64,000 nucleotides of DNA, taken from assembly GCA_024687125.1 (NCBI GenBank), contig JAILFA010000009.1, positions 62,001 through 126,000 of the forward strand, in the 5' to 3' direction. Under the pieces are notes generated by a model. The model had not been told where the DNA came from, ran no database searches, and saw only the letters and a program-made list of their open reading frames with translations. The translations under genes were made by a program, and so were the position numbers. Shown in pieces: positions 19,542-43,157 of this stretch. The stretch is from Lachnospiraceae bacterium. Its GTDB lineage: Bacteria; Bacillota; Clostridia; Lachnospirales; Lachnospiraceae. Each line of letters opens with the position of its first letter. The stretch's first letter is position 1.

Positions 19542-21670
19542 TCGCGATCTTTAAAAGAGATTTCCGCTCCGCTTTCCATACAGTCATCGCGGAGCTGTTC
19601 ATCGGACTGAATATCCTGATATTCGGCTTTTTCTTTTATCGTTATAATCTGCTCGGACAAAACACCAATTTAAACGGGGCTCTTTATAATACTTCATTCA
19701 TGGGACTGTCTTTCATGATCCCGCTTCTCTGCATGCGTTCCTTTTCTGACGAGAAACGCAACCGCACGGATCAGCTGATCATGACAGCACCGGTATCTGT
19801 CGGTCGTATCGTGCTCGGAAAATTTCTGGCTCTGGCTGCCATTTTCTCCATACCGACGGCATTGTTCCTGGTGCTGCCTCCGATCATGCGGCGGTTCGGG
19901 GAGATACCATGGCTCTGGAATTACGCGGATATCCTGGCATACTGGCTCTACGGGCTGATGCTGATCGCCATCTGCATGTTTATCTCCTCACTCACGGAAA
20001 ATGCGATCATCAGTGTAGTGCTCTCCATCGTCGTGATCTTCGGATTTCTTCTTCTCGGAGACAGCTTCAGCAATATCCAGATCGCATGGATCAAGGATCT
20101 CCTGAATGCCACTGTCAATATCAATCAGCGCCTGATGTCTGTCTATCTGGGATGCTCTGATCTGACAAGCTATGTGTTTTTTATCAGTGTCGGCATACTG
20201 TTTTTGTTCCTTACGGCGCAGGTCATTCTGAAAAGACGTTATACCGTATCGCGCGCAAATCTGTCTGTTACGGCGTACAGTTCAGTATCGATCATCCTTG
20301 TCGCTGCAGTGACAGTCTGTCTGAATATCCTTGTGCTGAAGATCCCTGATCATATCCGAGAGGTCGATCTCACGCAGGAAAAGGTATTTTCCATCAGCCA
20401 GGATTCCAAAAATGTTGCAGCGAACATCGGAGATCAGATCACTTTTTATTTTCTTGCGCAGGAAAATGACGAAGCAGGGTCTACCAAGGATCCGACCGTG
20501 GAGCGGATCCTCAAAAACTATCAGGATGCCGGCAGGAATATGACCCTGTCCTATGTCGATCCCGTCACAAATCCGAAATTTTATCAAAAGTATACGGAGA
20601 CGGATCCGGGATATTCTGGTGTGATCGTCGTCAATGAAGCAACAGGAAGGAGCAAAGCCATCCCGTACATGGACATGTACGAGACATCCATCGATTATAC
20701 AACCTACACCGAACAGACGACGGGCTATGATATTGAAGGACAGATCACGAACGCACTGCAGTATGTCACTCTGACAGATGACCAGCTCGTACAGGTCGGT
20801 ATGCTGACCGGTCACGGTGAAATGGCGTTCGAGGATACCTATGCGACTCTGATGGAGAATGCCAGCATGCATGTGGAGGATCTTTCGCTCCTTACGGCAG
20901 AATCGATCCCGGAAAACATGCAGCTTCTGATCATCAACGGACCAACGATGGATCTGACACCACATGAAGCTGAGCTGATCATCGGATTTCTGGAAAAAGG
21001 CGGGAATCTTCTCCTGATCACCAATCCGGACGTAACCGTCGAAACACCGAATCTTGACAGTGTGCTTGCCTGGTATGACCTTTCGCTTTATAATGGTGTG
21101 ATCGTGGATATGCAGGAAGGCAATAACTACGGATTCCTGTTCAATACAGCAGCATACCTGCTGCCGTTCCTCTCGGCGGATGATCCGGTTACCGCATCGC
21201 TCTCCACATCCGGTGTCGGAACAGTATTTCTGCCGGGAGCGCAGGGGATCAAAACAGGCGCGGAGGGCGGTGAAATATCGTATGTGCCTCTGCTGACAAC
21301 CTCGGACCAGGCCGTCCTGAGTGATGAACCTAACGGCGCACCGATGAGCTACACGGTAGGACTTCGAGCGGAAAAGACGCTTGATTCCGGGACAAGCACA
21401 GCAATAGTCTACACGAGCGCGCTGATGTTCACACAGCAGGCCGATGCCTATATCTCAGGCATGAACAGCCGGCTCTTCAGCAAGACCATCTCGGCTCTGG
21501 GTCAGCTGAACACTGATTATGTATATATTCCGGCGAAATCTTTCAACAGTTACCTGGTCATACCGAACAATCTGCGCAACTTCTTTACGGTGATCGGGTT
21601 CACACTGCTGATCGCCGCAGCAACCATCATTGCCGGCATCTTTGTCTGGGCAATGCGAAGGAGGAAATAA
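19538..21670 (+). CDS. ABC permease fused to GldG-type auxiliary domain
   Basis: N-terminal multi-TM ABC-2-like permease ([21 protein letters not shown]), C-terminal GldG-like region ([37 protein letters not shown]) with C-terminal TM. Confidence 0.85.
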
Positions 21671-21671
21671 G

Positions 21672-23135
21672 ATGAAGATCAGAACACGTTATGCCCCGAG
21701 TCCCACCGGCAGGATGCACGTCGGCAATCTGCGCACAGCTCTCTATGAGTATCTCGTTGCCAAGCACGAGGGCGGAGATTTTCTGCTGCGCATCGAGGAT
21801 ACCGACCAGGAACGCTATGTGGAAGGGGCAGTGGATCTGATCTACGAGTCTCTTAAGGACGCAGGTCTTTCCCACGATGAGGGGCCTGATATCGGCGGAG
21901 AGGTCGGGCCTTATGTGCAGAGCGAACGTGTAAAGTCCGGGATCTATCAGAAGTATGCCGAGGAGCTCGTCGCCAAAAAGGAAGCCTATTACTGTTTCTG
22001 CACGAAGGAGCGTCTTGAGAGCCTCAAACAGAATATTGACGGCAAGGAAGTGCTCATGTATGACAAGCACTGCCTCTCGCTGACAGAGGAAGAGGTGCAG
22101 GAGAAGCTCGCGGCAGGAGTTCCTCACGTGATCAGGCAGAACAATCCGCGCGAAGGCAAGACGGTCTTTCATGATGAACTATACGGAGATATCGAAGTCG
22201 ACAATGCCGAGCTTGACGATATGATCCTGATCAAATCCGACGGTTATCCGACCTACAATTTTGCCAATGTGGTGGATGATCATCTGATGGGGATCACGCA
22301 CGTCGTGCGCGGCAACGAGTATATCTCATCCACGCCGAAATATAACCGTCTTTATGAAGCCTTCGGCTGGGAGATCCCGGTATATATCCACTGCCCGCTG
22401 ATCACCGATGAGGAGCATAAAAAGCTCTCCAAGCGGAGCGGTCATTCCTCCTTTGAGGATCTGACAGATCTGGGCTTTCTGCCTGAGGTCGTGGTAAACT
22501 TCGTCGCGCTGCTCGGATGGTCTCCGGAGGACAACCGGGAGATCCTGTCATTGTCCGATCTGGTCGAATGCTTCGATTATCACAGGATCAGCAAGTCGCC
22601 GGCAGTATTTGACTATCAGAAACTCAGGTGGATGAACGGCGAATATATCAAGGCCATGGATCCGCAGAGATTCTATGATATGGCGGCAGCGGAGATCAAA
22701 AAGGCGGTGCCCGGATTTGAGGGTGATGAAGACAAGCTCCGAAAGATCGCGTCCATGGTGCAGTCCAGGGTGGAGCTCGTATCTGATATCCCGGAGATGA
22801 TCGGTTTCCTGGAAGAACTTCCGGACTATGACACGGCATTATACTGCCATAAGAAAATGAAGACCGACGAGGCGTCCTCCGCGGGAGTTTTAAAGGAGAT
22901 CCTGCCGTTTCTCGAGAGCCTGGAGGATTATCACAACGATGCGCTCTATGCGAAGATCTCCGAATGGATCACTGAGCACGGCTATAAGAACGGCTATGTC
23001 CTCTGGCCGCTTCGCATCGCGCTTTCCGGGCAGGCAACGACACCCTGCGGTGCAACAGAGATCCTGGAGCTCCTGGGCAAAGAGGAGTCTCTTTCCCGAA
23101 TCAGAAAGGGGGCAGAATTGCTTGCATCAAAGTAA
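21672..23135 (+). CDS. gltX: glutamyl-tRNA synthetase
   Basis: [34 protein letters not shown] aaggagg before ATG 21672. Confidence 0.95.
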
Positions 23136-25035
23136 AACCGAATACAGGATCCCGGGGAACGCTTCACAGATCCGCGCGATCAGACACAAGGACGGGCCCT
23201 GCTGCGTTCTCGCGGGGCCGGGAAGCGGCAAGACCTTTGTGATCGTTCAGCGCCTGAAGTATCTGATCGAGCACTGCGGCGTTCCTCCTTCCAGGATCCT
23301 GACCATCACCTTTACCCGGGCGGCAGCTCAGGAAATGAAGCAGCGGTTCGACAAGATCACCGATCAACGCTATCCGGAAACTCCATTCGGAACCTTTCAT
23401 TCCGTCTTTTATCACATTCTTAAAACATCCGGCCATCCGGCCGAAGAACCGCCGGGGATCCTCACTGAAACTGAAAAACAAAAGATCATGAAAATGATCC
23501 TGACGGATCTGCATGACAGTCATCCCGAGATCGTCTGTTCGCCCGATCTGTGCAATCTATGGCTCTCTGAGATTGCAAGGCGCAAGGGAGAGGGGACTGA
23601 TCCGTCCGCATGCAGTACAGACTGTTCGATCAGCGACATTCCTTACAGAGAATATTTCCCGGACGCATATCAGGAGTACCAGAAAATCTGCGGTGAGCTG
23701 TCAAAACTTGATTTTGAAGACATGATCGGAAAGTGTCTCAGACTTTTTCACGAAAAACCGGAGATCCTGCGTCAATGGAGAGAGCACTTTCAGTATATTC
23801 AGATCGATGAGTATCAGGATATCAATAAGATGCAGTCTGAAGTGGTCACGCTTCTGGCCGCGCCGGCGAATAATCTGTTTGTTGTCGGGGACGACGATCA
23901 GTCGATCTATGGATTCAGAGGCTCCAGACCGGATATCATGCTCGCTTTTGACCAGATGTATCCGGGAGCGCAGAGGATCCTTCTCGGTGTCAATTATCGC
24001 TGCCGTAAAAGCATCCTCGACGCCTCAGCACTTGTTATCCGTGAGAATCGTGTGCGTTTTGACAAAGAGATGAAACCGGGCAGGACAGAAGAGGCAGGTG
24101 AAATAGACGTGTTTGCCTGCACGGACAGAGAGGGCGAAGCGGAAAAGATCCGGGAAGCATATCTGAGAAGCAGAGAAGAGCACCGCAGCTTCTGCATCAT
24201 CGTACGGACGAACGCCCATGCACAGAAACTGGCGGATCTGCTCGCAAAAGGCGGTATCAAAAGCGCTTGCCGGGAGGTTCGGAACCCATATACAGGCGAT
24301 GAGATACAGGATATCCGGGCCTATCTGAATCTCTCCGTCCGGGTCTCCGTGGAGGATCTGCTGCGTATTCTGAACCGACCGTCCAGATATCTTTCACGGG
24401 AAAGTATAAGAGGCGGTGCAGATCTTTTTTCACAGATGCACACATATTACTCAGGACGCACTGCACTGAATGCGGCTGTAAGCAGACTGGAGCGCGATAT
24501 CTGGATGCTCTCGAATATGAGACCTGCGCTGGCGATCCGCTATATCCGAACAGTCTTAGGGTATGACCTGTATCTGAAAAACAGCTCAAAAATACAGGAT
24601 CCTCAGGCGGCGATAAAGCAGCTGGATGACCTGCAGAAAGAGGCGGAGGATTTTTCGCGTACGGAGCTTTTTGTCCGCCATATCGAGGAAAGCGCAGCAA
24701 AATCTCCGACGACTGCTGCGATGCAGAAATACCTCGAAACAGCGGACGACATCCGTGTCATCACCATGCATGCCGCCAAAGGGCTTGAATTTGATACCGT
24801 CTGGATCCCATCTGTCAACGAAGGAATCCTGCCTTCCCGGAAGAGCGTTACGCCTGAGCAGATCGAAGAAGAGCGGCGGCTTTTCTATGTCGCGATGACG
24901 CGTGCACGAAGACGGCTGTATATTTCTTACCTGACTGGAGATGACAATTACGCCTATGTCCCTTCAAGATTTTTAAGGCCGCTGAAAGGATCTGTGGTCA
25001 GACAGCCTGATCGTGTGACTGCCCGTGATAGGTGA
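23122..25035 (+). CDS. UvrD/Rep-type ATP-dependent DNA helicase (probable TTG start overlapping gltX end)
   Basis: [69 protein letters not shown]. Start is inferred; the listed ORF extends into gltX. Confidence 0.88.
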
Positions 25036-27771: not shown

Positions 27772-27800
27772 ATTTTAAAGGATCAAAAACAACCTGTCAA
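27772..27800 (-). promoter_or_regulatory. sigma-A-like promoter of the tetR-MFS-CPBP operon
   Basis: Minus strand TTGACA (27800-27795), 17 bp, TAAAAT (27777-27772). Confidence 0.65.
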
Positions 27801-27808
27801 GGATTTTT

Positions 27809-27823
27809 TCGACTGTCAGTCGA
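27809..27823. promoter_or_regulatory. putative TetR operator 2
   Basis: Near-perfect palindrome TCGACTG-T-CAGTCGA. Confidence 0.65.
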
Positions 27824-27855
27824 TTTTTCTAAAATGAAGTAATATCAGTGCTTTC

Positions 27856-27884
27856 TTGACCGTTCAGAAGGGGTTGGGTATAAT
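27856..27884 (+). promoter_or_regulatory. sigma-A-like promoter, start codon 8 nt downstream
   Basis: TTGACC-17-TATAAT, then 8 nt to ATG 27893. Confidence 0.65.
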
Positions 27885-27892
27885 GATTCTGT

Positions 27893-30673
27893 ATGCATAA
27901 ATCCATTGACGAAAAAAGACTCTCCTTACGGAACAAGATCATAGCTGCTCTCGTCATCATCTTTTTTGTCGGGATCATCCTGATGTATTACCGAATGCTT
28001 TACAGTGAAAAGCGCAGTAATATCATCAAGAGAGGAGAAATGACCGCCAGGGAATCGGCGGATCATATTGACCAGTACCTTACCACAAATATGGATAACA
28101 TAAAGCTGGCCGCTTATACACTGGATGAGATGCTCCGGGAAAACAGGACTGATGAGGAGATCCAGGACTATCTTGTCACGCAGTCAACCGCGGTGAGAAC
28201 TGCGGTCATAGAGAATATGACCGGTCTTTACGGCTATATCAACGGCAGGTTCTTCAGCGGGACCAACTGGATCCCTCCAGAGGGTTATGTTGCCACGGAT
28301 CGCCCCTGGTATACCAATGCCATGGAAACGCCCGGTGAACTGACGATACTGGATCCCTATGTCGACGTTCAGTCAGGCAATGTCATGCTCGCACTCGGCA
28401 AGACCCTGTGCGACGGCGTCAGTGTGATCTCTGTTGATGTATCGCTGGATCAGATCCAGAAACTCACCGAAGATGCCGTCAAGAGCGGAAACTCTGACAT
28501 GGAAATGCTGATCAACGACAAGGGGGTCGTCGTTGCGCATTCCGACAAAGAAGAGATCGGCCTCGATTACAGCATGGAGAATAACTCAATCGGAGCTGCG
28601 ATATTTGAGAAGTTCAAAAGCTCTGACGACCTGAGCTTTGATCTCGTTTTTCGGGAGAATACCTATGTGGTTTATTCCGCTGTACTGAACAACGGCTGGC
28701 TCTGTATCTCTGTCAAGAACGCGACGAATGTGTTCAATTCCCTGAATTCCCTCCTGGTCATCACGATCACGGTCCTGCTTGCGGTCACCCTGATCATCAG
28801 TATCATCATGAAGCGATCGAGAAAGTATCTGCATCTGTCTGCCAGAGCGATCGCCGCCAATGAGGCCAAATCCGAATTCCTGTCAAATATGTCCCATGAG
28901 ATCAGGACACCGATCAACGCCATGCTCGGCATGAACGAGATGATCCTCAGGGAGAGCGATGATACGACGATCCTCACCTATTCCGATAATATCCAGAAAG
29001 CCGGAAAGAATCTGCTTGGGATCGTCAATGAAATCCTGGATTTTTCCAAGATCGAAGCGGGGAAAATGGAGATCATCCCTGTGGATTATGACCTTTCTTC
29101 CCTTATTAAGGAACTGATGAACATGATCCATACCAGAGCGGAAGACAAGGGGCTGCTCCTTGACTGCGAATTTGACCGTAATATCCCGAGACGCCTGAAC
29201 GGTGATGAGGTCCGCATCAAGCAGATCATCACCAATATCCTGACAAACGCTGTGAAATACACGCACAAAGGCGGTATTACATTTCAGGTCGGCTATGAGA
29301 AACTGAAGGATGACCCGGAGAGCATTCTGCTCAAGGTTTCCGTTACAGATTCCGGGATCGGGATCAAACCGGAGGATCTGAAAAAACTCTTCAATCAGTT
29401 CGAAAGGATCGAAGAGACCCGCAACCGGAACATTGAAGGAACCGGTCTGGGGATGAACATCACCAAGATGCTCCTGGAAATGATGGGCTCCAGGCTCGAA
29501 GTACAGAGTGTATACGGTGAAGGCTCGACCTTCAGATTTTCTCTGAAGCAGAAAGTCGTTAACTGGGATCCTGTCGGAGATTATGAAGAGAGCTACAAAG
29601 AACATCTGACTGAAGACCGGTACCATGAGAAATTCAAAGCTCCGGACGCAAGGATCCTTGTTGTGGATGATAACTCCATGAACCTGATGGTCTTCAAGAG
29701 CCTGGTCAAACAGACCTGTGTCCGGATAGATACAGCCTTAAGCGGTGATCAGGGGATCCAAAGCACCATGGATACACAATACGACATGATCTTTCTCGAT
29801 CATATGATGCCCGTAAAGGACGGCATCGAGACGCTTCATGAGATCAGACAGAACGCAGGGAATCCCAATAAAAAAACACCCACCATCTGCCTTACGGCTA
29901 ATGCGATCTCCGGGGCGAGAGAGGAATACCTTGCCGCAGGATTTGATGATTATCTTACCAAACCGATCGATCCCGAAAAACTCGAAGACGTGATGCTTTC
30001 GTTTCTCCCGAAGGACAAGATCCTGTTTGACGAGACCGCTGTCAGCGCGCCTGCAGATCACAAGGAAAGCAGCATAGACGTAGCCTCGGCACTCAAAGAC
30101 ACTTCGATCGATCCGGAAGCCGGTATCAGAAACAGCGGATCGAAAGAGTCCTATCTTGCGCTTTTGAAGATCTTTTATGAGGATATCGACGATAAGAAAG
30201 ATGAGATCGAAAAGTATTATCGCGAAAATGACGTGAAAAACTATACGATCAAGGTACACGCGCTCAAAAGCTCCGCACGGATCATCGGAGCGGGTGATTT
30301 CGGCGAGATGGCACAGGAGATGGAAAACGCCGGCAAAGCCTCGGATACCGACTATATCCGCAGTCATCATGACCTGCTCATGGAAGAATTACTCAAGTTC
30401 AAGGAACCGTTATCAGCAGTTCTGGCAGATTACATCAAAGAAGCAAACAAGCCGCTTGCGGATCCGGATATCCTGGATGCCGTATTTGATGAGATGTGCA
30501 AAGGGGCAGCGGATATGGACTGCGAAATACTTGACGGGATTTTCTCTGAGATGGAGGAATACCGTATCCCTCCGGAGTATATAGAGTTATATGACAGTAT
30601 TAAAGAAGCATCGGATCAGTATGCGTATGACAGAATCCTGTCACTGCTGCAGGAACGCGCAATGAAAGAGTGA
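27893..30673 (+). CDS. hybrid sensor histidine kinase (dCACHE sensor, HisKA-HATPase, REC, HPt)
   Basis: Cache-like periplasmic region, H-box FLSNMSHEIRTPINAMLG, N-box RIKQIITNILTNAVKYT, REC ILVVDDNSMN...MIFLDHMMPVKDG, HPt KVHALKSSARIIGA. Confidence 0.93.
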   Translation: MHKSIDEKRLSLRNKIIAALVIIFFVGIILMYYRMLYSEKRSNIIKRGEMTARESADHIDQYLTTNMDNIKLAAYTLDEMLRENRTDEEIQDYLVTQSTAVRTAVIENMTGLYGYINGRFFSGTNWIPPEGYVATDRPWYTNAMETPGELTILDPYVDVQSGNVMLALGKTLCDGVSVISVDVSLDQIQKLTEDAVKSGNSDMEMLINDKGVVVAHSDKEEIGLDYSMENNSIGAAIFEKFKSSDDLSFDLVFRENTYVVYSAVLNNGWLCISVKNATNVFNSLNSLLVITITVLLAVTLIISIIMKRSRKYLHLSARAIAANEAKSEFLSNMSHEIRTPINAMLGMNEMILRESDDTTILTYSDNIQKAGKNLLGIVNEILDFSKIEAGKMEIIPVDYDLSSLIKELMNMIHTRAEDKGLLLDCEFDRNIPRRLNGDEVRIKQIITNILTNAVKYTHKGGITFQVGYEKLKDDPESILLKVSVTDSGIGIKPEDLKKLFNQFERIEETRNRNIEGTGLGMNITKMLLEMMGSRLEVQSVYGEGSTFRFSLKQKVVNWDPVGDYEESYKEHLTEDRYHEKFKAPDARILVVDDNSMNLMVFKSLVKQTCVRIDTALSGDQGIQSTMDTQYDMIFLDHMMPVKDGIETLHEIRQNAGNPNKKTPTICLTANAISGAREEYLAAGFDDYLTKPIDPEKLEDVMLSFLPKDKILFDETAVSAPADHKESSIDVASALKDTSIDPEAGIRNSGSKESYLALLKIFYEDIDDKKDEIEKYYRENDVKNYTIKVHALKSSARIIGAGDFGEMAQEMENAGKASDTDYIRSHHDLLMEELLKFKEPLSAVLADYIKEANKPLADPDILDAVFDEMCKGAADMDCEILDGIFSEMEEYRIPPEYIELYDSIKEASDQYAYDRILSLLQERAMKE

Positions 30674-30678
30674 CATCT

Positions 30679-32031
30679 ATGAGTTATTGGATTGTAATCG
30701 TCGACGATGAACCGTTTTGCCTGACAAACGCGAAAAATCTGCTGCGCGAGCAGAATATGCGTGTCAGTTGTCTGCGATCCGGAAAAGATCTTCTGACATT
30801 CATGGAGACGCATGATCCGGATCTGATCCTTCTGGATATTCTGATGCCCGAAATGGACGGTTTTGAGACCTACCATGCGCTCAGAGTCTGTGAGGGCAAA
30901 AAGGGAGTACCTCAGACACCGGTCATCTTTCTTACCGGCGAAGACAATCATGAAACGGAACGAAGAGGGCTCAAGGCGGGGGCTTCAGATTTCATACATA
31001 AACCTTTTGACAAAGACATCCTGATCAAAAGGATCAACAACGCGATCATCAACAGCAAAATGATCGAAAACCTCACAGAAGAAGCAACCCTGGATAAGCT
31101 TACCGGCTTTCTCAATAAATCCAGCGGAACGGAAAAGATCTCGTCCCTTTGCCAGGAAAGCGTCGGTTCCCTTGTGATCATGGATCTGGATAATTTCAAA
31201 CTCGTCAACGATCTGTACGGTCATGATATGGGGGACCGTATCCTCGTGGCATTCGCGGGGATCGTGAGACATAATGTCAGAGCGGATGATGTAGTCTCAC
31301 GGATCGGCGGTGATGAGTTCATGGGGTTTTTCTCCGATCTGACAGACGATCATGCTGTAGCGTCATTCGCGAAGAGGCTGAACACAGAGCTTTCCGAGGA
31401 AGCGGCTTCCATGATGGGAAAAGAGCACGGCATTCCGCTGGGGATCTCCATCGGTGTAGCGGTTTCTTCAGATGAGCAGAATGCGTTTCAGATCCTCTTC
31501 CGTTATGCGGACAGCGCCTTATATGAGGCAAAGCGCCAGGGCAAACACGGATATGTGATCTATAAACAGCTTCTGACAAAGCAGGATAACGATAATGATC
31601 TCGAACAGGATCTGGAAAGGATCACTCAGATCGTCGCGGAGCGCGGCGAAGGAAAAGGAGCGATGATCCTCAGCCAGGAAGCCTTTACATGGAACTATCA
31701 GTATATCGAGAGATTCGTCATTCGTTACGGCGGCGTGGCGACGCGCATACTTTTTTCGATTTCCTCAGACGAACAGGGTGTGTTGTTTTCCGAGATCGTT
31801 TCCGAATTCGGAAAATCTTTACAGAATACCCTCAGAAAGATCGATATCATCCTGCAATGGCAGCATAACCAGTATTTTGTCGTCCTCCCGCAGCTGAAGC
31901 AGAAGGATATGCACAGAGTGATCGAGCGGGTACTGGGTGCCTGGGAAAAACGCGGTTATCACGAACGCGTCAGGATCGACTATGTAACATCGTTCCTTTC
32001 TGCAGAGAACGATCAGGCAGAAGGGAAATGA
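30679..32031 (+). CDS. REC-GGDEF diguanylate cyclase with additional C-terminal degenerate GGDEF-like domain
   Basis: REC LILLDILMPEMDG; RADDVVSRIGGDEFMGFF (I-site RxxD plus GGDEF); C-terminal RKIDIILQWQHNQYFVVLP. Confidence 0.9.
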   Translation: MSYWIVIVDDEPFCLTNAKNLLREQNMRVSCLRSGKDLLTFMETHDPDLILLDILMPEMDGFETYHALRVCEGKKGVPQTPVIFLTGEDNHETERRGLKAGASDFIHKPFDKDILIKRINNAIINSKMIENLTEEATLDKLTGFLNKSSGTEKISSLCQESVGSLVIMDLDNFKLVNDLYGHDMGDRILVAFAGIVRHNVRADDVVSRIGGDEFMGFFSDLTDDHAVASFAKRLNTELSEEAASMMGKEHGIPLGISIGVAVSSDEQNAFQILFRYADSALYEAKRQGKHGYVIYKQLLTKQDNDNDLEQDLERITQIVAERGEGKGAMILSQEAFTWNYQYIERFVIRYGGVATRILFSISSDEQGVLFSEIVSEFGKSLQNTLRKIDIILQWQHNQYFVVLPQLKQKDMHRVIERVLGAWEKRGYHERVRIDYVTSFLSAENDQAEGK

Positions 32032-32056
32032 TCATTATCCGTCAGTGAGGTCGGAC

Positions 32057-34108
32057 ATGAATCTTAAAAGCAATGAAAAGTATATTGTTTTGATCGCGAC
32101 GCTGGGCTCTGTCGGGCTGATCATCGAAAACTATCTGCTGGGCTGGGAATTCTGGGTCCCGCCGATCGTGCTGATCGCGATCGTTCTGATCTGGGCTGTG
32201 AATCTTACGGACAGGATCGAATATGGCATCAGAAAGCTGTTTTATTTCGTTATCGCTGTCCTCTTACTGTTTTATCATGGAATACACAGGAGCAGCCTGT
32301 ACGATACAGGTATTGTTACTGTAATGATCATGGTCATCTACTCGATCTTCAACAGTGTCTATATGATGAATATCCTTCTGGCGGAATTCACTGTCATCTG
32401 GTTCATTCAGTTCCTTGATCTTCCGGAGGGGGAGCCGATCATCTATGACAGACTGACCATATCGAGGCTCCTTCTGCATGCGCTCATCGTCGTGATCATC
32501 TATTATTTCTGTGTGCGTTCCATCAACGAACGGGTTGATGACGAGGAGGAGAGAAGATCCAGGGAAGCGCGCATCGAAGCCAACGATGCCAGTATGGAGG
32601 ACTTTCTGTCCAACATCTCCCATGAGCTGCGTACGCCTGTCAATGTTGTCAACGGCATGTCCGATCTGCTCATCCGCAAGGGGATCGACCTGGAGGGGGC
32701 TGCCATCAGAAATGCGGGAATGCGTCTGGCGTATCAGATCGAGGATATCCAGGACTATACGGAGTGTAAGCGGGGCAAAGTCTTCATCGAAGAAGACAAT
32801 TATATGAGCACCTCCCTGATCAATGACGTTGTTACGAATTTCCGCCTGAATGACAATTCAAGAGATCTTGTACTTGTGGTCGACATGAATCCGGCTGTTC
32901 CGACGATGATGCGCGGGGATATCAGAAAGCTGCACAAGATCTTCCGGCATCTGCTTGAAAACGCCGTCAAGTTTACCAGAAAAGGCGGCATTTATGTGAA
33001 GATGTATACCGAAGCAGTCGAAAACGGTGTAAATCTGTGCATTGAGATGACGGATACCGGTATCGGAATGGACAGAAACGCGATCCGGTCTGTCACCGAA
33101 GGTATGTATCAGGAGAACAAAAAACGCAACCGAAGTTCCGGGGGCATCGGACTGGGCCTTTTCATCGTTTACGGATTTGCTCACCGTTTGGGTGGTTTTG
33201 TCAGAATCGAGAGCGAAAAAAGAGCAGGTACGACGATCCGCGTGACGATCCCGCAAAAGGTGGTGGATCCGACTCCCTGCCTGTCCCTGAAGGATTCTTT
33301 TGACGGTTCGATCCTGTTCCATGTTAAGCCGGATAAGTACAAGGTCGCCAGACTGCGTGATTTCTACCGTCACATGGCGGGCAATCTCGCGTCCGGCATA
33401 CATGTGCCGCTGTATCCGGCTGAGACTGTCTATGAAGTGGAACGGCTCAGGGAAAAGATGCATGTTACCCACGTATTTATGGGGCAGGAAGAATACGAAG
33501 AAAACAAGGGATACTTCGAGGGACTCGCAGGCGAAGGCATTGTTGTCGTGGTATCTGCAGGATCTGACGTGAAGACGCCGGAAAACAGCAGAGTCGTCCT
33601 GATGCCCAAACCTCTGTATGCATATCCGATCATCAGGATCCTCAACTACGGGACAGGCATCAGAGACGCGGAGGACGAAAAGGCAGTAAATAAGCCGGTA
33701 TTTAATGGAGTAAAGGTTCTGGTCGTCGATGACGAACCCATGAATCTGGTCGTCGCGACATCGCTGTTCAGGAATTACGGGATGATCGTGGAAACAGCGG
33801 CAAGCGGCAGAGAGTCCATCAGAAAAGTTCGTGACAACGATTATGACGTCGTTTTTATGGATCATATGATGCCGGAAATGGATGGTGTTGAAGCCATGAA
33901 GCAGATCCGATCCGTCGTCAGCGACACGGACAGAAGCGTTCTTGTCGTGGCACTTACCGCAAATGCTGTTTCCGGTGCACGAGAGATGTTTATCCGGGAA
34001 GGCTTTGACGGCTTCATCGCCAAACCGATCGACACATCGGATTTTGAACGGGTGATGCAGCGTATCCTGCCGGGAACACGCAGCGAAAAAGGAGGTGCAG
34101 AGAAATGA
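32057..34108 (+). CDS. membrane histidine kinase / response regulator hybrid
   Basis: Multi-TM N-terminus, H-box FLSNISHELRTPVNVVNG, N-box LHKIFRHLLENAVKFT, C-terminal REC VLVVDDEPMN...VVFMDHMMPEMDG. Confidence 0.9.
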   Translation: MNLKSNEKYIVLIATLGSVGLIIENYLLGWEFWVPPIVLIAIVLIWAVNLTDRIEYGIRKLFYFVIAVLLLFYHGIHRSSLYDTGIVTVMIMVIYSIFNSVYMMNILLAEFTVIWFIQFLDLPEGEPIIYDRLTISRLLLHALIVVIIYYFCVRSINERVDDEEERRSREARIEANDASMEDFLSNISHELRTPVNVVNGMSDLLIRKGIDLEGAAIRNAGMRLAYQIEDIQDYTECKRGKVFIEEDNYMSTSLINDVVTNFRLNDNSRDLVLVVDMNPAVPTMMRGDIRKLHKIFRHLLENAVKFTRKGGIYVKMYTEAVENGVNLCIEMTDTGIGMDRNAIRSVTEGMYQENKKRNRSSGGIGLGLFIVYGFAHRLGGFVRIESEKRAGTTIRVTIPQKVVDPTPCLSLKDSFDGSILFHVKPDKYKVARLRDFYRHMAGNLASGIHVPLYPAETVYEVERLREKMHVTHVFMGQEEYEENKGYFEGLAGEGIVVVVSAGSDVKTPENSRVVLMPKPLYAYPIIRILNYGTGIRDAEDEKAVNKPVFNGVKVLVVDDEPMNLVVATSLFRNYGMIVETAASGRESIRKVRDNDYDVVFMDHMMPEMDGVEAMKQIRSVVSDTDRSVLVVALTANAVSGAREMFIREGFDGFIAKPIDTSDFERVMQRILPGTRSEKGGAEK

Positions 34109-37100
34109 ATCATTTCCGTTTCTTAAAGCCCGCCTTTGACGCAATCAAAGATAAAGACCGCGATTTTACCGAGAGGATCTTCCTGATCCTGACTCTTTTA
34201 TCCGAAGTGGCTGTATTTATCGCTTTTATAGCGGATCTGATCACGGGAGAAAACCCGTATGAGCTTATGACGCTGATAATCACGCTGATCGCAGTGCCGT
34301 CCATCGTTCTGATCAGTCTGCATTTTGACGCCATTAAGACAGCGATCAGGATCATCGTTCTGGCACTGGTATTCCTGATCCTTCCCGCACTGTACTTTTT
34401 CGGCGGAGGCATTGAAGGCGGCGGGTTTATCTGGATCATTTTCGCTTTCATGTATGTCGGTCTTGTTCTGAGCGGCAGATGGCGGAACATCATGTTTACG
34501 ATGATCGCTCTCCTGGCGCTGGGCTGCTATCTGGCTTCGTATTATTATCCGGACCTGCTGTATCCGCACTCCAGAGAGATGTTCTATGTGGATACGTTTG
34601 TTTCTCTCATCATGGTCGGCGTTCTATGCTTTGGAATGACCTGGTCGCAGGGACTTCTGTTCAAAGAGGAAAACGAGCGCGCCAAAAAAGAAGCGGAGAG
34701 AGCTGAGGAACTGACCCGCCAGCAGAACCGGTTCTTCTCAAGCATGAGTCATGAGATCCGTACACCGATCAATTCCATCCTGGGATTAAACGAACTGATC
34801 CTGCGCGATCAGAATGCTACGGATGATATCGCAAGAGACGCTTCCGGGATCCAGGGCTCCGGAAAGATGCTTCTCGCGCTGATCAACGACATCCTGGATT
34901 TTTCAAAAATGGAAGCCGGAAGCATGGATATCGTACCGGTGGATTATAAGATCGGCGACATGCTTTCCGAGGTCGTCAATATGATGTGGCTCAGGGCGCA
35001 TGACAAGGGACTCGATTTTGAGGTGAGCGTTGATCCGGAAGTCCCCACAGTGATGTATGGGGATGAAGTCCGCATCAAACAGGTGATCATCAATCTGCTC
35101 AACAATGCCGTGAAATACACAAAGAGCGGGCGTGTTGAACTTCGCATCGAAAGCAGGGACATCGATCATGATACCGTCGAACTGCTGATCTCCATCACGG
35201 ATACCGGCATGGGGATCAAAAAAGAAGATATCCCATATCTGTTCGATGCTTTTAAGCGTGTCGATCAGGGAGAGAACAGGCATATCGAAGGAACAGGTCT
35301 CGGACTGTCCATCGTCAAACAGCTGGTCGAACTGATGGAAGGCACAGTCACTGTAAACAGTATCTACGGAGAAGGCTCCACATTTACGGTATCGATCAGA
35401 CAAAAGGTGACCGATCACAGCAAGGTCGGCGAACTGAATATCCATAATCAACAGAATATTCAAAGAAGTCTCTATGAGAGCAGCTTTATGGCTCCGGAAG
35501 CCAGGATCCTGATCGTGGATGACAATGAAATGAACCTGCTCGTCGAGAGCCGTCTCCTGGAAGATACAGATATCGGTATCGATAAAGCTCTGAGCGGAAA
35601 GGAAGCGCTGGAGCTGACTCTGAAGAACCATTATGACACGATCTTCATGGATCATCTCATGCCCGGAATGGACGGAATCCAGTGTCTTGAGCTGATCCGT
35701 GAACAGACAGGCGGACTGAACCGCCATACGCCTGTCATTGTACTGACTGCCAATGCCGGAAGTGAGAACAGAGAGATATACAACAACGCCGGCTTTGACG
35801 GATATCTGGTAAAGCCGGTTTCCGGCGCGGCTATGGAAGAAATGCTCATCCATCATATTTCCGCCGATAAGGTGATTCTCAGAAATGTGATGGTCGGAGA
35901 TGATGAAGAGATCCATACTGCCGATCGTTTCGCGGAAAAGCTTCCGGTGATCATCACCTCTTCGAGCATGTGTGATCTTCCGGATGCTGTGGTCAGGAAA
36001 CTGAGGATCCCAATCATCCCGTTTATCATCCGGACAGAGGAGGGCGAATTCAAGGACGGCGTCCATATGGATGCATCGGAACTGATCCGGCATATCAGTT
36101 CAGGAAAAAAGGCTGTTTCCTCTCCGCCGGATGAATCGGCCTACACAGAATTCTTTGCTGATGCATTAAAGAAAGCGCATCACCTGATCCACATCGCGAT
36201 CACGACAAGCATGAGCACTGAATATGAGACAGCATGCGAGGCGGCACGATCATTTGACAATGTCACGATCATCAATTCGGACTGCCTGTCCAGTGCGACA
36301 GGTATCCTTGTGCTCATCGCCTATAAGCTGACCCAGCAGGGGCTGAAGGCAAGTGAGATCGCACGTGAACTGGAAAATGTCAAACATCGGCTCAAGTGCA
36401 GCTTTATCATTGATACAACGGAGTTTATGGCAAAGAAGGGACTGGTCAGTGAACGCTTCCACAGGATCGCCGATTTGCTCAGCATTCATCCTGCGATCCG
36501 CATCAAAGACGACAAAGCCGGTCTTGCCGGTCTGTGGTTCGGAAGATCCAGGCGCGCATACAGAAAGTATATCCGAAAAGCTCTTCCCGTGGACACCGTC
36601 CCTGATGCCGATGTTGCTTTCGTGACTTATGTGGATCTCCCTGAGGAAACCATCACCTGGATCGAGGAGGAGATCCGTAAAACAGTTTACTTTGAACATA
36701 TCGTGTTCATACAGGCTTCCGCGGCAATTTCGTCGAACTGCGGACCGGGCAGCTTTGGCATACTGTATTTCCTGAAATCAAATAAATCCTACAATCTCGG
36801 TTCCTTCATCGATACGATGAAGGCAGCCGAAAAGGCAGCGGAGATCGCAGCCGATCATGATGCATCCGTTGAAGAGGCAGACCTTTCCGAGGAAACGGAA
36901 TCCTATGAAGAGGCTGCTTCTTTCGAGGAACCTTATGTACACGAGGCATCGGAAGAACCGAAATGGTATCAGTTCCTTGACTGTATCGATGCGGAGGCTG
37001 CTGTCAAAAACAGCGGTTCGGAGGAAGCATTTAAGGCGGTCCTGAAGATCTTCTATGATTCCATCACGGAGAAGCACGTGGAACTCGAAAACAGCTATCA

Positions 37101-37563
37101 GACAGAGGACTGGGAGAACTACACGATCAAGATCCATGCCCTCAAGAGCTCCGCAAGACTCGTGGGTGCCCTGGAACTCGGAGAAAATGCGCAGCTTCTG
37201 GAAACAGCCGGAAAAGAGAATAATATCGGCTATATCAGAGAGCATCACGCCTCTGTCATGGAGGATTATCTGCAGTTCAGAGAGGAGCTTTCGATCGTGT
37301 TCGCAGATGAGGATTCAGAAGGTGCTGACAGCAAACCGGTCGCGGACAGCTTTCTCATGGAGAGCATTTATGAAGGTCTGCGGGAAGCGGCAGCTGATAT
37401 GGACTGTGACCGGATCGAAGACATCATGTCTGAAATCAGAGAATACGAGATCCCGTCCGCTGAAAAAGAAGTGTTTGAAAAGATATGTGAAAAGATCGAT
37501 CTGTTGGATTATGTCGGGATAATAGCGGCTATAGACGGGCATGATCAGTCGAAAGACAAGTAA
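34105..37563 (+). CDS. membrane hybrid histidine kinase with REC, DegV-like and HPt domains
   Basis: H-box FFSSMSHEIRTPINSILG; REC ILIVDDNEMN...TIFMDHLMPGMDG; DegV-like VIITSSSMCDLPDAVVRKLRIPIIPFIIRTEEGEFKDGV...TTSMSTEYETACEAA...IIDTTEFMAKKGLVS...NCGPGSFGILYFLK; HPt KIHALKSSARLVGALELG. Confidence 0.9.
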   Translation: MNHFRFLKPAFDAIKDKDRDFTERIFLILTLLSEVAVFIAFIADLITGENPYELMTLIITLIAVPSIVLISLHFDAIKTAIRIIVLALVFLILPALYFFGGGIEGGGFIWIIFAFMYVGLVLSGRWRNIMFTMIALLALGCYLASYYYPDLLYPHSREMFYVDTFVSLIMVGVLCFGMTWSQGLLFKEENERAKKEAERAEELTRQQNRFFSSMSHEIRTPINSILGLNELILRDQNATDDIARDASGIQGSGKMLLALINDILDFSKMEAGSMDIVPVDYKIGDMLSEVVNMMWLRAHDKGLDFEVSVDPEVPTVMYGDEVRIKQVIINLLNNAVKYTKSGRVELRIESRDIDHDTVELLISITDTGMGIKKEDIPYLFDAFKRVDQGENRHIEGTGLGLSIVKQLVELMEGTVTVNSIYGEGSTFTVSIRQKVTDHSKVGELNIHNQQNIQRSLYESSFMAPEARILIVDDNEMNLLVESRLLEDTDIGIDKALSGKEALELTLKNHYDTIFMDHLMPGMDGIQCLELIREQTGGLNRHTPVIVLTANAGSENREIYNNAGFDGYLVKPVSGAAMEEMLIHHISADKVILRNVMVGDDEEIHTADRFAEKLPVIITSSSMCDLPDAVVRKLRIPIIPFIIRTEEGEFKDGVHMDASELIRHISSGKKAVSSPPDESAYTEFFADALKKAHHLIHIAITTSMSTEYETACEAARSFDNVTIINSDCLSSATGILVLIAYKLTQQGLKASEIARELENVKHRLKCSFIIDTTEFMAKKGLVSERFHRIADLLSIHPAIRIKDDKAGLAGLWFGRSRRAYRKYIRKALPVDTVPDADVAFVTYVDLPEETITWIEEEIRKTVYFEHIVFIQASAAISSNCGPGSFGILYFLKSNKSYNLGSFIDTMKAAEKAAEIAADHDASVEEADLSEETESYEEAASFEEPYVHEASEEPKWYQFLDCIDAEAAVKNSGSEEAFKAVLKIFYDSITEKHVELENSYQTEDWENYTIKIHALKSSARLVGALELGENAQLLETAGKENNIGYIREHHASVMEDYLQFREELSIVFADEDSEGADSKPVADSFLMESIYEGLREAAADMDCDRIEDIMSEIREYEIPSAEKEVFEKICEKIDLLDYVGIIAAIDGHDQSKDK

Positions 37564-37583
37564 CAGCAAGAAGGGGGAGTTTT

Positions 37584-37802
37584 ATGGTGCAGAAGGTACA
37601 GGAAAAGGTTAAAAAGATCCTGCTCGGAGAGATCAGGTATACATCGTCCAATCTGGCGTTTAATATCCTGATCTCCAAGATGCAGAAAAAAGTGAAGGCG
37701 GATCCGGCGTGCATGGACGCCTGCCTGAGTGAACTTGACGAGTTTTTGACGAAGTATCCGATCGTTGCCAAGGTCGATCTCGCCAATATCGCTGTACTGT
37801 GA
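37584..37802 (+). CDS. small hypothetical protein (72 aa)
   Basis: SD aagggggag; tight spacing within operon. Confidence 0.65.
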   Translation: MVQKVQEKVKKILLGEIRYTSSNLAFNILISKMQKKVKADPACMDACLSELDEFLTKYPIVAKVDLANIAVL

Positions 37803-37836
37803 CAGAACACAACACAGAATACAAGGAGGTACGGTA

Positions 37837-38802
37837 ATGCTCATTACTTTGGAAGAAACCAGAAAACTGATCAATGACGGAAAGATCCTTCATATAGCTG
37901 CTGATGAAACCATGCTCGCCCAGCTTCCGCAGGGAAAATGGATCGGCGGTACTACGCCATACTTCATCGGCGATGAAGGCGGCACCATGACAAAGGAAAA
38001 ACTCTTTGTAAGTGTGATCGATTACGCCGAGGATGCAAGGATCGCTGTCTATGGAAAGTATAATGTCTTTCAGATCGTCGAGGAATGCTATGACAACGGG
38101 CTCACCATGCTCATCATGCCCTATGGCTCCGAGGTCGCGGCCAAATACGCCAAATCCGCACCTGATGTTGAAGAACTCCTCATGCATCCGACGATCGGAT
38201 GGATCTCCGGCTACGAGCTGAACACCGTAGGAGAGGCTAAGGTCTTTGACGGAACAACAGGAGCGTCGTATACAGATAAAGCTGTTGTCATGTATATCAA
38301 ACTCCCTGAAGAGAAGAGCGCGATGATCAATATGATCAATATCTTCACGGACGATAAGACTGACCCGGTCATTCGGTTCGAAGACAATGATCTGAGTGTC
38401 ACAGACTGTACCGTAAACGGACAGAAGGTCAATTTTGCCGAGTATATCGCCAAAAAGGGGATCGATCCCAAGATGCCCCTGGTCGCCGACTATAATGGCT
38501 CTTATCTGAACATTTCCATCAAGGCCGTTGATGAGGGGAAAGTACACTTTTATGCTCCTGTGTTCAGAGATATCGAATACCGGTTTGCTACAAAGGTTGA
38601 CGATTATGCTGCTGAATTCAGGAACAGGGTCGAATCCGCTGGTGCCCGAAATCCGGTGTTCTCGTGCAACTGTATCCTGAATTATCTCTATGGAGAACTG
38701 GAGGGCAAGAAAACTCCTCCGTACACCGGACCTGTTACCTTTGGTGAAGTGGCCTATCAGCTGCTGAACCAGACACTCGTATACTGTGAGATCCTGGGAT
38801 AA
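37837..38802 (+). CDS. uncharacterised protein with weak FIST-C-like C-terminus
   Basis: SD aaggaggt; C-terminal NPVFSCNCILNYLYGELEGKK...GPVTFGEVAYQLLNQTLVYCEI. Confidence 0.7.
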   Translation: MLITLEETRKLINDGKILHIAADETMLAQLPQGKWIGGTTPYFIGDEGGTMTKEKLFVSVIDYAEDARIAVYGKYNVFQIVEECYDNGLTMLIMPYGSEVAAKYAKSAPDVEELLMHPTIGWISGYELNTVGEAKVFDGTTGASYTDKAVVMYIKLPEEKSAMINMINIFTDDKTDPVIRFEDNDLSVTDCTVNGQKVNFAEYIAKKGIDPKMPLVADYNGSYLNISIKAVDEGKVHFYAPVFRDIEYRFATKVDDYAAEFRNRVESAGARNPVFSCNCILNYLYGELEGKKTPPYTGPVTFGEVAYQLLNQTLVYCEILG

Positions 38803-38805
38803 GAA

Positions 38806-40341
38806 TTGAATACGATGCTGGATACGGTAATACAGATCAATGAAGCAGTAAACGATTTCGTCTGGGGGACCCTGGGACTGGTCCTCCTGCTCGGAACCGG
38901 ACTGATCTGTACGCTGATCACAAACTGCTTTCAGATCACAAGGCTCAGGCACTGGTGGAAGAAAACATTCAGGATTGCCGACAATGAGGGCCGCATCATT
39001 AATGACGCGGGTGCGCTGTCGCAGGTTCGGACATTCTGTACAGCGCTCTGCGCAACGATCGGCACCGGCAATATCGCCGGAGTCGCAACAGCCATCTGTG
39101 TCGGAGGGCCGGGGGCCGTGCTCTGGATGTGGGTCGCTGCCGTTCTTGGCATGATGGTCAAATACTCCGAGAACCTGCTCGGTCATTATTACAGACGGAG
39201 AAACTCGGAGGGGGCCTGGTCCGGCGGGCCGATGTATTATCTGCAGGACGGACTTGGTTCCATAAAGCACTGCAGAAAACTGGGAAGATTTCTCGGCATT
39301 ATTTTCTGCATTTTTACTGTACTGGCATCCTTTGGGATCGGAAACATGGGACAGATCAACAAGATCACCATCAATTTCCAGTCAACCTTTCTGTCTGGAA
39401 TTCAGACGGGTATGTTCCTGGGTGCCCCCAAAGCGAACTGGGTCATTGGGATCGTCCTCATGAGTGCCGTGGCCGTGATCATCCTTGGCGGTTTCAGAAG
39501 GCTTGCCGCCGTTTCGGAGAAACTGATCCCGTTTATGTCAGCAGCCTATATCATTGGATGTATCGTGATGATCCTGCTCAACATCACGCAGCTGCCGCAG
39601 GTTTTTGCATCGATCTTCCGATTTGCTTTCGGTCCGGCGGCGATCGCCGGCGGAGCAGCCGGAACAGCCCTGCAGACAGCACTCAATACGATCAAGAACG
39701 GATGCAAACGAGGTATCTTTTCCAATGAGGCAGGACTTGGTTCTTCCGTCATGGTCCACAGCAACAGCTGTCTTCGCGAACCTGTACGCCAGGGGATGTG
39801 GGGGATCGCCGAGGTATTTCTTGACACGATCGTGATCTGCACGATGACCGCGATCGTTGTTCTGTCCTCCGGTTATATCGATCTGAACACAGGTCTTGTC
39901 AAAGACGGTGTCAATGACGCCACCCTTGTGGCAAAAGCGTTCGGAAATATCCTTGGGCGGCCCGGCGAATGGTTTGTTGTTCTGATGATCACACTTTTTG
40001 CCTTTACAACTGTCATGGGCTGGTCTTATTATGGAGCTAAGGTAACGGAGTATCTCCTCGGAGTAACATTTGCCCGGATATATCGGCTTGTGTTTATAGC
40101 CCTGATCGTCTTTGGCGCAATCATGGAATCCAACCTGGCATGGGACATCTCTGATACGTTCAACGGTCTGATGATGATACCGAATCTGATCGGCGTTCTG
40201 GTACAGATTCCTCTCATCATAAAACTGACGAGGAATTATATTGAGAGAAGGATCCTGAAGCATGAGATCGAGCCGATGCTTTCGTATGATCCGGATATAC
40301 AGAAGGACGCTGCCAGAGCAGTCAGCAGAGGGATCAACTGA
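38806..40341 (+). CDS. sodium:alanine symporter family protein (TTG 38806 or ATG 38815 start)
   Basis: ATIGTGNIAGVATAICVGGPGAVLWMW, SGGPMYYLQDGLG, FSNEAGLGSSVMVHS. Confidence 0.92.
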   Translation: MNTMLDTVIQINEAVNDFVWGTLGLVLLLGTGLICTLITNCFQITRLRHWWKKTFRIADNEGRIINDAGALSQVRTFCTALCATIGTGNIAGVATAICVGGPGAVLWMWVAAVLGMMVKYSENLLGHYYRRRNSEGAWSGGPMYYLQDGLGSIKHCRKLGRFLGIIFCIFTVLASFGIGNMGQINKITINFQSTFLSGIQTGMFLGAPKANWVIGIVLMSAVAVIILGGFRRLAAVSEKLIPFMSAAYIIGCIVMILLNITQLPQVFASIFRFAFGPAAIAGGAAGTALQTALNTIKNGCKRGIFSNEAGLGSSVMVHSNSCLREPVRQGMWGIAEVFLDTIVICTMTAIVVLSSGYIDLNTGLVKDGVNDATLVAKAFGNILGRPGEWFVVLMITLFAFTTVMGWSYYGAKVTEYLLGVTFARIYRLVFIALIVFGAIMESNLAWDISDTFNGLMMIPNLIGVLVQIPLIIKLTRNYIERRILKHEIEPMLSYDPDIQKDAARAVSRGIN

Positions 40342-40382
40342 ACAAGAAGAAAAACCTGATACATGGTTTAGGGAGGTTAAGG

Positions 40383-41183
40383 ATGAACGAAGGAAAACAG
40401 AGGGAGATCTTCATCGCGATGTTCAAATACAGCGTGGTTGTCAAGGGGATCGAGCGCAAACTGACAGATCTCGATTTCAAGGTGACGACGGTATCGGAAC
40501 GTCTGGATGATCATATGGAGCACTTCGGAGGGCGTGCTGCTCTGTTCATCCTGTATCTCACGGGAGATATCGCGGAAGATTCCGCGCAGAGAGCGCAGCT
40601 GTTCCGCCTGTGCGGCATTGCCGAAGACAAAAAGCAGAAGATCCTTCTGATCGTTGAGGAAAGAAGTTATGAAGACCTGATGAACCATCTGCCTGCACTG
40701 AGGTCCTATGCCTGGATCAACCGGCCGGTAAATATGGAACTGCTGGAACAGACAGTCTTTCGCGTGGTCGATAACATCGATCCGGCAAGCGGTGAAACCA
40801 TTGCAGACAAAAAACCGCGGATCCTGATCGTCGATGATGATCCCTCTTACGCGAAAATGGTACGAGAATGGATCAAGGACAAATACAGGGTCGATATCGT
40901 AACCGCAGGTATGCAGGCGATCACCTTTTTGCTCAAGGTCAGGGAGACGGAACCGATCAATATGATCCTGCTCGATTATGAAATGCCTGTCGTTGACGGC
41001 CCGCAGGTGCTCCAGATGCTCCGCCAGGAACCGCAGACAGCGCAAATACCTGTAGTATTCCTGACCGGTATCGGAACAAAGGAAGCTGTCGGCCGCGTCA
41101 TGGAGCTCAAACCGGACGGTTATGTCCTGAAATCAACCACAAGAGAGGATCTTCTTGCATTTCTCGCAAAGAAACTCGGATAG
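40383..41183 (+). CDS. response regulator with N-terminal receiver-like region and C-terminal REC
   Basis: C-terminal ILIVDDDPSYAKMV...NMILLDYEMPVVDGPQVL...PVVFLTGIGTKE; N-terminal half has receiver-like pattern without clear phospho-Asp. Confidence 0.82.
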   Translation: MNEGKQREIFIAMFKYSVVVKGIERKLTDLDFKVTTVSERLDDHMEHFGGRAALFILYLTGDIAEDSAQRAQLFRLCGIAEDKKQKILLIVEERSYEDLMNHLPALRSYAWINRPVNMELLEQTVFRVVDNIDPASGETIADKKPRILIVDDDPSYAKMVREWIKDKYRVDIVTAGMQAITFLLKVRETEPINMILLDYEMPVVDGPQVLQMLRQEPQTAQIPVVFLTGIGTKEAVGRVMELKPDGYVLKSTTREDLLAFLAKKLG

Positions 41184-41236
41184 TTTTTTGTGCACCTCAT
41201 CCGCAAACGAAACGAGATTATAACACGTAATCCTGT

Positions 41237-41266
41237 TTGATTCCATAGGCTGGATTATGATATAAT
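41237..41266 (+). promoter_or_regulatory. extended -10 promoter, start codon 7 nt downstream
   Basis: TTGATT-18-TATAAT with TGA before -10; ATG at 41274. Confidence 0.65.
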
Positions 41267-41273
41267 CATCCAC

Positions 41274-43157
41274 ATGCAGATCAAAGTAACGACAGATCAT
41301 CGGTATGAACCGCACTGTTATCGGGAAAAAGACACGATCATTTTCTGCGGGTATTTTCCCAAGACAGCAAAATGCGGGATCATATTTTATAAAAAGGACG
41401 GATCCGATCCGATCACCGTGAATCTTCCGGAGAATTGCCGGATCGGCAGAATGTACGCTGTCAGGATCCAGGGGATCGATCGCGCCTACGACCGGTACAG
41501 GCTTTTGTCAGGCGGTAAAGACTTCGCGGATCCGTGTGCATTTCTTGTATATGGTCTGGAGGATTTCGCAAAACCATCTCCGGAGGACAGGATCTACGGC
41601 AGAGTCTTTGACATTTCACCGGCGGACCTTATTGAACGCAACGAAAAAAGTGCTCTGCGTTTACGAAGAAATGATGAAGATGAACAGCTCTACCTGCTCC
41701 ATGTGCGCGGGTTCACGATGAGCCCCAGCGCCGGTGTGGAACGCTCCCACAGAGGAACTTTCGCCGGTGTCATCGATAAAGCTGACCACATCGCAAGCCT
41801 CGGAACGACCACGGTGGAACTGATGCCTTCCTATGAGCTGATCTCCAGAGAGCCGGCGGGACCCGAGAACGCTTCCGCGGCCAAAACAGAAAAAGAACTG
41901 CCGACGCGATGCAATTACTGGGGCTTCAAAGAGGGCTTCTACTTTGCCCCGCGAAGTGCGTATGCCTCCGGTGATCCCTGTGAAGAATTCCATGAAATGG
42001 TCAGCTGTCTTCACAAGCGGAAGATATCCGTCATCATGCAGTTCTGGTTCCCCGAACGGTATCCTGCAGCATTGATCCTTGCCGTCTGCAGACACTGGCT
42101 TCTTTTTTACGGTGTTGACGGCTTCCATCTGATCGGCGGCAGACTGCCTGCGGAATCACTGGCAGCTGATCCTGTTCTAGCTGATGCAAAGATCTACTAT
42201 GATACCCTGGATACAGCCAGGATCGCCGCGTCCGGGGGCTCACAGAACCTCTCGCTGTACCGCGATGATTTCCAGATCGCTGTCAGACGCTTCCTGAAAT
42301 CCGACAACCTTTCGATCAGCCCCTTTTTCGGGGAAATGACCAGGGTGAACGAGGGCTGCGGTCATGTCAATTATCTTGCCGATTACAGGGGATTTCGTCT
42401 CGCAGACAGTGTGGCCTATGAACATCGGCACAACGAAGCGAACCATGAGAACAATGCGGACGGCACAGATAATAATCTGACCTGGAACTGCGGTGTGGAA
42501 GGCCGCAGCAGGAGAAAAACGATCCTGCGCCTCAGACGCAGACAGATCTTCAACCAGCTGGTGATGCTGTTCTTTGCGCAGGGAACGCCGATGCTCTTCG
42601 CCGGAGATGAATTCCTGCATTCCCAGGACGGCAACAACAATCCGTATTGCCAGGATAACGCGATCTCCTGGGTCAACTGGAAGATGGAGCAGAACGCGCT
42701 CGGACAGGATACGCTGTCATTTGTCCGTTTTCTGTCCGCTTATCGAAGGGAGCATAAGATCCTGCGTCAGAGCCGCCCGTTCCGGCTGATGGACTACAAG
42801 GCTTTCGGTTTCCCGGATCTTTCCCTGCACGGCATGGAAGCCTGGCAGCCGGATTTTTCGGACTATTCACACAGCGTTGCCATGCTTTACTGCAATCTGT
42901 ACGCCAAAGAACAGGATCCTGCGTTTCTTTACTGTATCTATAACTGCTCCTGGGAAAGCAGACGCTTTGCACTGCCTACGATACAGAAATCCCTGCACTG
43001 GACGGTTGTCATAGACACTTCCAAAGAAGGCGCTGAGATCCGTGATCACGATCTCAGCGGTGAAAAGACCATCCTTCTTGCCCCGAGGAGCTGCGTGATC
43101 ATGGAGGTGCGGGGCAAATACAGGATCGCTTCCTCAGAACAGCGGACACCTTTCTGA
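41274..43157 (+). CDS. GlgX/glycogen-debranching-like GH13 protein, apparently lacking catalytic residues
   Basis: HRHNEANHENNADGTDNNLTWNCGVEG, QLVMLFFAQGTPMLFAGDEF match the debranching family; catalytic motifs altered (see findings). Confidence 0.85.
   Translation: MQIKVTTDHRYEPHCYREKDTIIFCGYFPKTAKCGIIFYKKDGSDPITVNLPENCRIGRMYAVRIQGIDRAYDRYRLLSGGKDFADPCAFLVYGLEDFAKPSPEDRIYGRVFDISPADLIERNEKSALRLRRNDEDEQLYLLHVRGFTMSPSAGVERSHRGTFAGVIDKADHIASLGTTTVELMPSYELISREPAGPENASAAKTEKELPTRCNYWGFKEGFYFAPRSAYASGDPCEEFHEMVSCLHKRKISVIMQFWFPERYPAALILAVCRHWLLFYGVDGFHLIGGRLPAESLAADPVLADAKIYYDTLDTARIAASGGSQNLSLYRDDFQIAVRRFLKSDNLSISPFFGEMTRVNEGCGHVNYLADYRGFRLADSVAYEHRHNEANHENNADGTDNNLTWNCGVEGRSRRKTILRLRRRQIFNQLVMLFFAQGTPMLFAGDEFLHSQDGNNNPYCQDNAISWVNWKMEQNALGQDTLSFVRFLSAYRREHKILRQSRPFRLMDYKAFGFPDLSLHGMEAWQPDFSDYSHSVAMLYCNLYAKEQDPAFLYCIYNCSWESRRFALPTIQKSLHWTVVIDTSKEGAEIRDHDLSGEKTILLAPRSCVIMEVRGKYRIASSEQRTPF

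Follow-up and report, generated by a model that had tools for sequence, protein, structure and literature searches.

The window analysed in this study, a stretch of 64,000 nucleotides from a Lachnospiraceae genome, contains a gene for a protein of 627 amino acids that is classed, from its sequence, as isoamylase/GlgX-type (GH13_11-like) with all four catalytic regions degenerate. The features of this gene and of two genes that are its usual neighbours in relatives are listed in Table 1. Analysis of the stretch before the gene (positions 41237-41274) revealed a TG-extended TATAAT 7 nt 5' of the ATG and no Shine-Dalgarno sequence, and a leaderless mRNA is possible for this gene. At another locus (L031, gene at 10001) a TATAAT also occurs at similar spacing 5' of the ATG.

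Table 1. Positions in the window of the degenerate GlgX-like gene, its parts and conserved neighbours of its family.
Feature	Coordinates	Strand	Basis
gltX, conserved neighbour of the family, apart from the gene here	21630..23135	+	locus comparison
UvrD-like helicase, usually directly upstream of the family gene	22939..25035	+	locus comparison
Promoter-like site with an extended -10 element, TTGATT-18-TATAAT; its 3' end lies 7 nt from the ATG	41237..41266	+	sequence
Catalytically degenerate isoamylase/GlgX-type protein, 627 aa	41274..43157	+	database profiles and PDB relatives, AlphaFold2 model, Foldseek
Degenerate region I, QFWFPE, residues 256-261 (canonical DVVFNH)	42039..42056	+	alignment with intact GlgX
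Shortened region I-II spacer (domain B, 68 to 24 residues)	42057..42125	+	spacer lengths compared across the family
Degenerate region II, GFHLIGG, residues 283-289	42120..42140	+	
Degenerate region III, YDTLD, residues 309-313	42198..42212	+	alignment
R338, putative counterpart of maize ISA1 border-lobe R504	42285..42287	+	alignment numbering
Degenerate region IV, DYRGFRL, residues 370-376	42381..42401	+	alignment
Retained block, residues 373-469, with N387, W404 and N454 as putative counterparts of maize ISA1 N561, W578 and N628	42390..42680	+	column conservation, sequence numbering, PMC12510319

Pfam analysis of the product found a marginal isoamylase C-terminal domain, an amylase domain below threshold and nothing more. 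The relatives of the protein in the PDB are plant isoamylase 1 (ISA1), bacterial GlgX, TreX and the inactive plant ISA2. An AlphaFold2 model (pLDDT 92, pTM 0.92) predicted an intact fold, and its top Foldseek matches, at TM about 0.8, were rice ISA1, alone (TM 0.82) and in the ISA1-ISA2 complex, and Streptomyces GlgX; in the model and these matches the isoamylase fold spans the whole length of the protein. The protein descends from a GlgX/isoamylase-type debranching enzyme. It resembles GlgX, TreX and plant ISA1 in fold and in the C-terminal motifs NExNGENNxDG, SWNCGxEG and GDExxxSQxGNNNxYCQDN; unlike them, its family lacks the catalytic triad and the insert between regions I and II, and the window protein scores only 247 bits against the NCBIfam GlgX profile TIGR02100, below the equivalog cut-off of 640.9 bits. 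Five other members of the family score 293-352 bits against this profile.

The earlier note on this DNA had read the four regions as the motifs given in Table 1, lying between debranching-type flanks, and had contrasted them with an amylase at 16591-17898 that keeps all its motifs. All four motifs and both flanks (RHNEANHENNADGTDNNLTWNCGVEG, residues 385-410; GTPMLFAGDEF, residues 437-447) were found in the 627-residue frame, and the amylase does carry DGVFNH, GLRLD, YGEM and DNHD. Alignment with 37 intact Lachnospiraceae GlgX proteins revealed that all seven GH13 signature residues are altered in the window protein: Asp to Gln and His to Glu in region I, Arg to His and the nucleophile Asp to Ile in region II (the two region II losses that the note had named), the acid/base Glu to Asp in region III, and His to Tyr and Asp to Arg in region IV. 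The domain-B insert of about 44 residues between regions I and II is missing as well. The note had asked whether an intact triad might lie elsewhere once isoamylase structures were aligned. Profile alignment to solved isoamylases matches the degenerate stretches with regions I to IV of those structures, so misalignment is excluded, and the same columns in 147 relatives also rule out catalytic residues elsewhere. The window protein is almost certainly without catalysis.

Comparison across genomes revealed that these losses are shared by a whole family. A total of 29 further full-length orthologues, at approximately 39-62% identity, were found in genomes of the same genus, and the family is present in 84 of 100 sampled Lachnospiraceae genera. 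In a scan of named genomes the best 80 matches were Lachnospiraceae or metagenome-assembled genomes titled only Clostridia, Eubacteriales or uncultured bacterium. In the class and phylum samples every match outside Lachnospiraceae showed the split pattern of active GlgX with domain B; therefore no family member was found outside Lachnospiraceae in these samples and a wider spread of the family was rejected.

No Asp/Glu/Asp triad is intact among 147 distinct members. In 146 of them the nucleophile Asp has given way to another residue, Lys, Met, Asn, Ile or Val, and the sole member with Asp in that column has region III deleted. The region II Arg is replaced by His in 102 members, region III is deleted outright in some, and the same loss is seen in members from across the family. 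The spacer between regions I and II is 24 residues long in 103 of 105 members examined and 68 residues long in all eight canonical proteins. In a tree of 86 sequences a branch with SH-aLRT 100 separates all the inactive proteins from the active GlgX proteins of Lachnospiraceae and other Clostridia; the tree was a quick search and the inactive profile was used to collect the members, and a rare intermediate could therefore have been missed. The 147 relatives are accordingly described here as one fully supported clade in sequence comparison, and this, with the breadth of the family, rules out a loss private to one lineage. The dN/dS ratio between close orthologues is 0.05-0.12 (Nei-Gojobori), which indicates that the gene is functional and not decaying, and long frames are open in the window gene and in the extracted members; a pseudogene was rejected on both grounds. 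The view of the note that the frame is open and constrained, and that a catalytically dead GlgX-like protein is being conserved, thus holds for the family, the losses being common to all orthologues under strong purifying selection. The loss of catalysis is complete and old, and the family is ancient and specific to Lachnospiraceae.

Analysis of column conservation revealed where the constraint lies. The family has lost 50 positions that active GlgX conserves, and 37 of them lie within residues 251-372, which comprise regions I-III and the start of region IV. Among 67 positions conserved in both the active and the inactive groups, 34 lie within residues 373-469, a block that makes up 15% of the length. 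Only seven positions are newly conserved in the inactive family. In maize ISA1 the missense mutants R504C, N561S, W578R and N628K cluster in the border lobe, and activity is lost in mutants at these sites; W578 contacts glucan at secondary binding site 2 (SBS2) and N628 contacts N561 (PMC12510319). The putative equivalents in the window protein are kept in 145 (R338), 147 (N387), 144 (W404) and 147 (N454) of the 147 members, the equivalence being one of sequence numbering rather than of superposed complexes. Maize numbering was reached through the aligned isoamylase chain, with an offset of 27 for N561, W578 and N628 and of 26 for R504; the change of offset matches a visible one-residue indel, and N561 was counted by hand in the same alignment. 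As aligned, the counterpart of the isoamylase 1 border lobe and secondary glucan site hardly varies within the family. A non-hydrolytic, glycogen-binding role is plausible because these residues are kept. The retained block is also conserved in active GlgX and therefore may serve folding or dimerisation.

A dead version of the enzyme kept under strong selection in about five-sixths of Lachnospiraceae genera probably handles glycogen without cutting it. We infer that glycogen binding by the family protein is somewhat more probable than its opposite. The best explanation overall, which we place slightly above even, is a non-catalytic isoamylase family that binds the alpha-glucan of intracellular glycogen without hydrolysis. 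The protein would bind alpha-glucan chains through the retained border-lobe/SBS2 surface and, once bound, could serve as a scaffold or steric guard, or regulate how glycogen is made and broken down, a non-catalytic role comparable in principle to that of plant ISA1/ISA2 complexes; an active GlgX would not be required as its partner.

Dead isoamylases are already known in plants. The literature searched, the coverage of which is incomplete, with most subscription journals outside it, contained no description of such a bacterial family. By analogy, the nearest precedent is plant ISA2 (GH13_11), a catalytically dead isoamylase that has lost the nucleophile and most catalytic residues across its lineage and is kept by selection (PMC12510319). 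The bacterial family shares these traits and is related to ISA2 by sequence and fold; in contrast to ISA2, it has lost most of domain B. The inactive plant beta-amylases BAM4 and BAM9, proposed to act via glucan or protein binding (PMC12892837), are likewise dead glucan hydrolases but belong to another enzyme family.

The strongest alternative to glycogen binding, still an unlikely one, is that the isoamylase fold has been reused for a new and unrelated function, for example in RNA or nucleotide metabolism, with glucan binding incidental or lost. The gene setting points in this direction: in relatives the conserved neighbours are gltX and the UvrD-like helicase upstream, frequently with a small intervening DUF1292 gene, Butyrivibrio loci have miaB-mutS-mutL downstream, and no glycogen gene adjoins the loci of the family. 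In 76 of 151 loci a DUF5662 gene of the same orientation begins no more than 800 nt downstream, and at many of them it overlaps the family gene by 4 nt. However, DUF5662 is absent beside many members, and DUF5662 as an obligate partner was rejected. It was not found in the window genome either, but it may still be present there, as the assembly is 86% complete and the search was positive in no control genome. The most conserved block of the family is the one common to active isoamylases and matching the glucan site, and the small number of newly conserved positions also argues against a new function. Genes for DUF5662 directly downstream of inactive GlgX are seen, for example, at L032:11956-12576 and L095:11950-12519, and at about 75 other loci. 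The DUF5662 proteins have invariant His/Asp residues, and their predicted structure is a confident model with no PDB match.

Analysis of glycogen genes in the same 100 Lachnospiraceae genera found GlgA in 99 and GlgP in 97. Active-type GlgX was found in 33, of which one match is partial, GDE_C in 19 and type I pullulanase in 26; the absences are subject to the thresholds used and to the draft state of the genomes. With glycogen genes this common in Lachnospiraceae, co-occurrence is hardly informative. All 16 sampled genera without the family keep GlgA, and in 12 of these no GlgX, type I pullulanase or GDE_C was found either; the family is therefore not essential wherever glycogen genes occur. 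Among the 84 carrier genera, 35 have none of the three debranching families (GlgX, type I pullulanase, GDE_C); GlgA and GlgP are both present in 33 of the 35. It is conceivable, though distinctly doubtful, that in gut and rumen Lachnospiraceae the dead isoamylase shapes glycogen in place of a canonical debranching enzyme, as a glucan-binding organiser or through an activity not of the GH13 type, in cells that make and phosphorolyse glycogen without a recognised debranching enzyme.

An ISA2-like regulatory subunit, which would assemble with the cell's own active GlgX into a hetero-oligomer and tune that enzyme, is slightly less probable again. In plants the dead isoamylase ISA2 occurs in complex with ISA1 (PMC12510319; PMC12892837), the window genome carries two intact GlgX, and 32 of the 33 GlgX genera also carry the inactive protein (Fisher p = 0.018). 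However, whereas ISA2 pairs with active ISA1, the bacterial family mostly occurs without GlgX: 52 of the 84 carrier genera lack it, and an obligate partnership is therefore disfavoured. Furthermore, ISA2 keeps SBS1 and has lost SBS2, while the bacterial family keeps the SBS2/border-lobe residues.

The 35 carriers without the three debranching families would also fit a non-canonical enzyme, in which other residues keep the activity and supply debranching to cells that have no known debranching enzyme. We consider this reading improbable, below the regulatory subunit. The nucleophile, the Arg and domain B are gone and region III is wholly missing in some members; nearly all invariant Asp/Glu residues are common to active GlgX and lie outside the triad, E392 being the sole new invariant acidic residue; and debranching could come from other GH13 enzymes.

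Naming by loose GlgX similarity would make these proteins debranching enzymes, and glycogen breakdown capacity would therefore be overstated in a main gut and rumen family. As many carrier genomes hold glycogen synthase and phosphorylase and none of the three known debranching families, the role is testable by deletion. A dead isoamylase found across a whole bacterial family also offers a simple system in which to ask what selects for an isoamylase without catalysis, a question that applies to plant ISA2 too.

The earlier note had further suggested a glycogen or oligosaccharide sensor or scaffold tied to the adjacent signalling genes; a glycogen-binding, non-hydrolytic role is plausible, and the tie to those genes is unsupported. 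In the window about 16 kb (about 25040-41200) separate the helicase from the GlgX-like gene. This block contains an MFS gene, hybrid kinases, a GGDEF regulator, DUF6976 and a sodium:alanine symporter, and 90 bp separate the end of a response regulator gene from the GlgX-like gene downstream of it. A glycan sensor wired to these two-component genes, for which the c-di-GMP activation of Streptomyces venezuelae GlgX through an ExR(X)6R motif in its N-domain (PMC9530166) offers a parallel, is very improbable, since the block is absent in the closest relative (locus L143) and at nearly all other loci, and the gene has its own promoter-like site; the link to the signalling block was rejected on synteny. 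The Streptomyces protein is similar in fold (TM 0.78-0.82) but is an active enzyme, and its motif is not conserved in the dead family: ExR(X)6R is absent in the window protein and N-terminal in only 4 of 154 family sequences, and a c-di-GMP effector of that type was rejected. At the Butyrivibrio locus L032 a kinase and a regulator are present at the position of the block.

Two further observations were made in the window. The gene at 34105-37563 encodes an unusual fusion: in a hybrid histidine kinase with HisKA, HATPase, receiver and Hpt domains, a DegV fatty-acid-binding domain lies between the last two. Genes for a GldA/GldF/GldG-like ABC transporter lie upstream of gltX (18549-21670), and similar ones precede gltX at several other Lachnospiraceae loci.
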